64,000 nt of DNA, from assembly GCF_029873255.1 (NCBI RefSeq), contig NZ_CP123622.1:868501-932500 (forward strand). Reading direction: 5' to 3'. Below the pieces are notes generated by a model. That model ran no database searches. It was given only the letters and a program-made list of their open reading frames with translations, and had not been told where the DNA came from. Each line of letters starts with the position of its first letter. Within the stretch, counting starts at the first letter, position 1. The stretch is from Pigmentibacter sp. JX0631 (GTDB lineage: Bacteria; Bdellovibrionota_B; Oligoflexia; Silvanigrellales; Silvanigrellaceae). The translations under genes were made by a program, and so were the position numbers. Shown here in pieces: positions 15,081-16,417 of this stretch.

Positions 15081-15385
15081 TTTTGTTTCATTACCAAAAA
15101 ATAAAATGGTCTATACCTATAATACAAAATAGTGATGGACACCATTGCCTGCCAATCTAAAAAATATGTAGCCAAAGGGCATCTTACGTTTTCTTAAGTA
15201 TTTGTAAATATAGATTTTTTTAGTTTTAAAATTATTTAATACATTGTAATTACTAAATTATTTTTTCTAGTACAATACTCATTGAGAGAGTGATTGAAAA
15301 GGAATAGCTTGGTTTCAACGAATTTAAAGCTCTCTCCACATAGATGCTTTCATTCAATAAAAATGGTTATTTTGAGGAGATTTTC
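15081..15385. other. Intergenic region with leader stem-loop before the Xer-like gene
   Basis: About 305 bp separate the divergent thioesterase and Xer-like genes. No ORF is supported. GAGAGAG (15284-15290) can pair with CTCTCTC (15330-15336), and inside it TTGAAA (15294-15299) with TTTCAA (15313-15318), giving a leader hairpin about 50 nt before the start codon. TACAAT at 15271 is a possible -10 element but lacks a well-spaced -35. Confidence 0.4.
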
Positions 15386-16417
15386 ATGGACGGAAATTTT
15401 GTCAACCATCAGTCTGTCGTGTCTGAAATTATAAATAAGGATTTTTTCTATCCGGAAACGTTTGCATTTTCCAAACTTTCACCTTTGCTTATTAGATTTT
15501 TAAATCAATTAAAAAAATCAGGTAAATCAGTAAATACCATCAGCGCTTACCGAAATGACCTTTCGCTCTTTTGTGAATTTTTAATAGAAAAACAAATTAG
15601 CCCTGATAACTATTCTTACCCAGCGCAAGAAAACTGGCTACACTTTTTAAAAGAAAATGGAAGACATTCTCAATCAAGTATGCGCCGAGCACAAATGAGC
15701 GTAAGAACTTTTATCCATTTTTTAGTGTCAGAAAAGATAATAGCAAGTTCACCTTTTTTAGATATAAAATCACCGAAACAACCAGCACCAGCGTTGCTAA
15801 CTGTTACGCATGAAAAATATTTAAGCTTATGCAGAACTTTAAAACAGTTAGCATTAAATAAGGATGAAAAAGCAATACGAGATTGGACATTAGTTTTAAT
15901 TTTAGGCGACTGTGGTTTAAAAGCATCAGAGGCATCGAATTTAACTTGGGGTGATGTTTGGCCTGAGCTAGAAGAACCAACAACTGAGGATTCCATAGCT
16001 GGGTGCTTAAAAGTAACTGGCAATAATGAACGTTTGGTACCTTATAACTTAGAGGTTTCTAGAGCATTAAACATGTTACGAGAAACCAGAGATCAAATGA
16101 ATTTACCAACATCTCTCGAATCAAAACTCTTCTTCGGCTACTTAAATGTGAGTAGAAAAACAAGAACAAATTTTCTTCACAGACATGGGATAAAATTTGT
16201 GATTTATGAAGTATGCACAGAAATATTGGGCATACCTTACAATTCAGAAAGTTTACGTAACCATGCTATTTTAAGATGGCTTGCAAAAGGAATGGACAAT
16301 GAAAAAGTAGCTAGTTTAGCTGGCTATTCTTCTTTAAATTCACTTGAACGCTTTTTAAATAGTAAGGAAAGAAAAAAGACAAGTACTCGAAAAATAAAAA
16401 CAAAACAAAAGGATTAA
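15386..16417 (+). CDS. XerC/D-like tyrosine-recombinase fold, catalytically degenerate
   Basis: I start at ATG 15386, which has GAGGAG 6 nt upstream; ATG 15344 would add 14 residues. The 343-residue protein has the SAM-like N-terminal core-binding domain (SVNTISAYRNDLSLF) and the C-terminal catalytic fold. Catalytic positions are changed: Arg-I is Lys179 (GLKASE for GLRVSE), the first His is Glu288, the His/Trp is Tyr314 (AGYSS for LGHSS), and the nucleophile Tyr is Phe323 (LERFLN). The second Arg, Arg291, remains. Spacings between these positions match XerD exactly (3, 23 and 9 residues), so the alignment is secure. The fold appears intact, suggesting a DNA-binding or regulatory protein rather than a recombinase. 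The same reading frame continues past one TAA into the next gene. Confidence 0.8.
   Translation: MDGNFVNHQSVVSEIINKDFFYPETFAFSKLSPLLIRFLNQLKKSGKSVNTISAYRNDLSLFCEFLIEKQISPDNYSYPAQENWLHFLKENGRHSQSSMRRAQMSVRTFIHFLVSEKIIASSPFLDIKSPKQPAPALLTVTHEKYLSLCRTLKQLALNKDEKAIRDWTLVLILGDCGLKASEASNLTWGDVWPELEEPTTEDSIAGCLKVTGNNERLVPYNLEVSRALNMLRETRDQMNLPTSLESKLFFGYLNVSRKTRTNFLHRHGIKFVIYEVCTEILGIPYNSESLRNHAILRWLAKGMDNEKVASLAGYSSLNSLERFLNSKERKKTSTRKIKTKQKD

Follow-up and report, generated by a model that had tools for sequence, protein, structure and literature searches.

The window, a 64,000-nucleotide stretch of the Pigmentibacter sp. JX0631 genome, carries at positions 15386 to 16417 of the plus strand a gene whose product is probably a core protein of its phylum that derives from Xer recombinases and binds DNA without cutting it. 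The product is almost certainly not a recombinase, and the role put forward in the sequence-only reading, that of a DNA-architecture or regulatory factor, is a natural inference. The open reading frame extends from 15386 to 16414 (343 amino acids) and reaches 16417 with its stop codon. A likely Shine-Dalgarno sequence, GAGGAG (15374 to 15379, plus strand), lies just 5' of the ATG at 15386, in agreement with the gene boundaries and strong ribosome site described previously. An upstream in-frame ATG at 15344 would add a 14-residue extension (15344 to 15385), which shows similarity throughout the genus. The Shine-Dalgarno sequence favors the start at 15386, and the similarity of the extension may partly reflect the ribosome site. 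The window genome is a single contig of 3.65 Mb, and among its relatives are Spirobacillus cienkowskii and Fluviispira multicolorata, the latter genus being placed by NCBI in the Silvanigrellales, Oligoflexia.

Pfam and NCBIfam searches of the translation identified the protein as Xer-like. Both domains of the Xer fold scored above their Pfam cut-offs: the core-binding (SAM-like) N-terminal domain at residues 36 to 117 (15491 to 15736, plus strand; Phage_int_SAM_1, 4e-11) and the former catalytic domain at residues 143 to 327 (15812 to 16366, plus strand; Phage_integrase, 1.2e-7). The scores against the equivalog models were below the cut-offs, at 87.6 bits for XerD (TIGR02225; cut-off, 329.6) and 74.1 bits for XerC (cut-off, 335.15); these cut-offs are strict, being passed by only 4 and 2 of 14 control genomes, respectively. 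An AlphaFold model based on three close sequences had a mean pLDDT of 45, which was too poor for use, and it was discarded.

The catalytic positions of the window protein were examined in a joint alignment that included XerC and XerD from Escherichia coli together with 22 further recombinases from the phylum, using E. coli XerD numbering. Where active enzymes have R-K-H-R-H-Y, the window protein has K-T-E-R-Y-F. Catalytic Arg-I (R148) is replaced by K179 (15920 to 15922), a Lys in 26 of 26 family rows, and the beta-hairpin Lys (K172), kept in 8% of family rows, is replaced by T211 (16016 to 16018). His-II (H244) is replaced by E288 (16247 to 16249), with Glu in 92% of family rows and His in none, and His-III (H270) by Y314 (16325 to 16327), a position at which family members carry Leu or Tyr but not once His. 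The nucleophile Tyr (Y279) has given way to F323 (16352 to 16354), and this column holds Phe, His, or another residue in the family, with Tyr in 1 of 26 rows. The only survivor is the second arginine, R291 (16256 to 16258; XerD R247), which is invariant; all of these codons are on the plus strand. The four substitutions first noticed from the letters (Lys179, Glu288, Tyr314, and Phe323) were therefore all recovered, but the count of four losses in five positions has to be corrected to five in six, as the hairpin Lys is also gone. The other phylum recombinases in the same alignment keep R-K-H-R-H-Y, apart from one row with His replaced by Tyr and one with Lys replaced by Arg, indicating that misalignment does not explain the substitutions. 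Nowhere toward the C terminus does the family alignment show an invariant Tyr, which argues against a shifted nucleophile, and a complete catalytic set at shifted positions was rejected on the same ground.

The loss of the active site is ancient and common to the family and is not a local decay. A family profile built from 24 members was searched against 46 genomes of the GTDB phylum (Oligoflexia), each at least 85% complete, and a single orthologue was found in 44 of them. The orthologues scored 228 to 398 bits, with no paralogue above 119 bits, and one orthologue (G021) was split over two contigs. The profile search gave no match in two draft genomes (G036 and G039), and the gene is present in three other genomes of the genus of G039. 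In the recombinase tree, the family forms one clade against all other recombinases (support, 100/98). Within the genus, where synonymous sites are unsaturated, dN/dS was 0.01 to 0.08, indicating strong purifying selection. The only disrupted orthologue seen (L017 on G004:C4) has a frameshift at a T run near residue 38, which may be real or may stem from a sequencing error. Conservation of the substitutions, suggested at the outset for sister genomes, thus holds far beyond them, and apart from this homopolymer frameshift there was no sign of the decay in close relatives that would have spoken against the sequence-only reading.

The fold was retained as first proposed. Structural columns of the active enzymes (XerD T25, Y29, P103, G146, E151, G173, and F210) are kept in 88 to 100% of the family, and basic residues are also retained. 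Little or nothing remains of XerD R148, K172, H244, H270, T275, T276, and Y279, and every member has R247. The family has in addition a motif of its own, R-H-G-I-K-F in the window protein (residues 266 to 271; 16181 to 16198, plus strand), which aligns to XerD from R220-Q221 onward. Its family form is R266-H267-G-x-K270-F271, with R266, H267, and K270 invariant. An invariant His occupies the place of the XerD recognition-helix residue Q221, for which a contact with dif position 24 has been predicted (PMC2731167). The DNA-recognition surface appears to be retained in an altered form. As the invariant basic residues and the fixed R-H-G-x-K-F motif persist at the recognition helix, the two domains would still grip a specific DNA site, and the protein would act by occupying this site on the chromosome. 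Loss of recombination with retention of binding would be the simplest history, as active Xer recombination is undetectable in several lineages.

The position of the gene supports vertical descent. Outside the Silvanigrellales, judging from the sequences of its neighbors, the gene usually adjoins tadA and diverges from a gene for a small secreted protein and an NtrY/NtrX-like pair, and these loci lie near tuf, secE, nusG, rplKAJL, and rpoB. In the Silvanigrellaceae, the broader region is the same and the gene precedes uvrC; in the window genus, etfBA and rplKAJL-rpoB also lie downstream of it (gene names read from sequences in each case). With this common chromosomal region, the gene is most likely vertically inherited and derived from an Xer-type recombinase. 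A phage or plasmid origin was rejected: plasmids and phages had only remote recombinases, with less than 30% identity among the matches listed, and viral contigs had none.

As a specific role, we tentatively suggest the organization of the chromosome or its terminus, for example, by stopping or unloading SMC, as the sequence-specific SMC unloader XerD does in Bacillus subtilis (PMC12322038; PMC8242196). ScpB was found in 45 of 46 genomes, indicating that SMC-ScpAB is present in the host; being near-universal, it is weak evidence for such a role. Two observations count against it. The gene lies near rpl-rpoB and not near a recognized terminus site, and the FtsK gamma domain, one possible partner, was undetected in families f5 and f8 (G017, G018, G019, G022, G024, G025, G027, and G032) and hence would not be obligatory. 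The FtsK motor was present in these families where checked and in 13 of 13 genomes checked overall, in G022 weakly. A dif-pattern search gave no matches above the control; xerCD and dif have been reported for Bdellovibrio (PMC11318664).

The protein could instead be a transcriptional regulator with a recombinase fold that binds operators, and this is possible but unlikely. MrpR shows by experiment that a recombinase fold can become a repressor that binds DNA (PMC10516654), and the conserved DNA-binding positions of the family would suit such a function. However, no common motif was found upstream of the gene across the genomes, the neighboring genes differ between families with no functional partner common to all genomes, and the gene is a host core gene with no phage link. 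We lean slightly toward chromosome organization over transcriptional control, although the evidence does not decide, because the gene belongs to the host core, is related to chromosomal Xer proteins, and is not linked to phages.

The other recombinases of these genomes were also surveyed, as the sequence-only reading had asked whether true XerC and XerD exist elsewhere. The Silvanigrellaceae have intact tyrosine recombinases of a group found in this family alone, as a rule two in each genome, and these may be their functional Xer pair. In the window genome, they are L003 (G000:C1:2576505-2577347) and L004 (G000:C1:3274986-3275822), with the full R-K-H-R-H-Y set in frames of 380 and 340 amino acids. 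The same genome has an Xer-like recombinase split over adjacent frames of 151 and 121 amino acids (L007 and L008; G000:C1:1535123-1535694), and a 343-amino-acid frame in G006 (L098) has very similar catalytic motifs. In four genomes of the phylum (G019, G027, G030, and G032), the gene studied here is the only Phage_integrase-family match. Beyond this gene, nothing in G044, G050, and G054 matched the XerD model, and nothing in G057 matched the XerC model. The genomes without another tyrosine recombinase are drafts, and the pattern recurs in several families.

Most genomes outside the Silvanigrellaceae carry a serine recombinase of approximately 200 to 260 amino acids. The serine resolvases of 23 genomes form one clade with a support of 100/99 (L183, L195, L201, L202, L186, L196, L191, L182, and others), and about a dozen more genomes have likely members by score and length only. 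Six serine recombinases of the Silvanigrellaceae fall outside the clade in the same tree. Upstream of the resolvase in five genomes of three families (G021, G028, and G049; G037; G015) is a res-like site consisting of a 28-bp imperfect inverted repeat and a second element about 60 bp further. The 28-bp site was found neither elsewhere in the 1.17 Mb of sequence searched nor in shuffled sequence, and the remaining resolvase genes had no res-like site within 330 bp upstream. In family f10 (G034:C99, G045:C8, G053:C3, G054:C3 [L204], and G057:C208 [L206]), whose genomes are approximately 4.7 to 7.4 Mb, a single contig holds two clade-type resolvases separated by about 5 to 15 kb, and for G054 and G057 the tree places the two copies within the clade.

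The resolvase and its res-like site look like a self-contained module for dimer resolution, a candidate for this function where active Xer is absent, and the clade may have taken over dimer resolution outside the Silvanigrellaceae. How proteobacteria deficient in dif/Xer resolve chromosome dimers is a question that has been posed before (PMC2731167), and the clade offers a candidate answer that can be tested. A fuller scenario is that a chromosomal serine resolvase with a res site of its own took over dimer resolution from Xer/dif, the successor in the Silvanigrellaceae being a separate active tyrosine-recombinase pair, and that the dead Xer protein was kept only for a task on the chromosome that involves no recombination, for instance, unloading SMC at the terminus. 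We regard this combination as rather improbable; if true, evolution has separated the two jobs of XerD.

That the protein is a noncatalytic subunit promoting the assembly of an active tyrosine recombinase at its site, in the way that one Xer subunit can support the other, is very unlikely. The intact Xer-like recombinases of the Silvanigrellaceae, including those of the window genome, would provide it with a partner. However, in several genomes the gene is the only detectable tyrosine-recombinase gene, and although these are drafts, its retention there largely speaks against the protein being merely an assistant of active Xer. Catalysis with a different set of residues is highly improbable: the invariant K179, R266, H267, K270, and R291 could in principle contact phosphate, but five of the six classical positions are lost and the C terminus offers no invariant Tyr. 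A decaying relic, for which one could cite the T-run frameshift in G004 and the missing matches in G036 and G039, has a negligible probability and was rejected in view of the purifying selection, the open frame in nearly all genomes, and the retention across the phylum.

That a host core gene has given up Xer chemistry throughout a phylum and yet stays under very strong selection suggests an important function of Xer proteins for which DNA need not be cut. In these organisms, this function could be tested directly, with no recombination to confound the outcome. Proteins of this type score against recombinase models and are commonly labeled as recombinases. Dead recombinase folds are already known, but a nonexhaustive search of the open-licence literature returned no description of a host core Xer protein whose active-site loss is fixed across a phylum.

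Among known systems, E. coli XerC and XerD share with the family both domains, the overall length, the structural core columns, and Arg-II. The family differs in having lost five of the six catalytic residues, in forming its own clade, and in the invariant His at Q221. A streptococcal XerD-like protein (PRK02436/NF002685) is likewise Xer-like without the catalytic residues and is encoded beside scpAB. The gene neighborhood of the family is different, and the window protein scored 21.7 bits over part of that model, far under the cut-off of 178, and so does not belong to it. B. subtilis XerD is similar as a chromosomal Xer protein with a role in chromosome organization, which for the family is proposed by analogy. 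Unlike the family, which has lost most of the catalytic set, B. subtilis XerD has recombinase activity as well. MrpR, the master repressor of the Bacillus prophage SP-beta, resembles the family in its tyrosine-recombinase fold, which for the family is judged by sequence, and in its lost catalytic residues, and it acts by binding DNA (PMC10516654). However, MrpR is phage encoded and keeps a Lys and a Tyr (K169 and Y304), whereas the family is encoded by a host core gene and has lost both.
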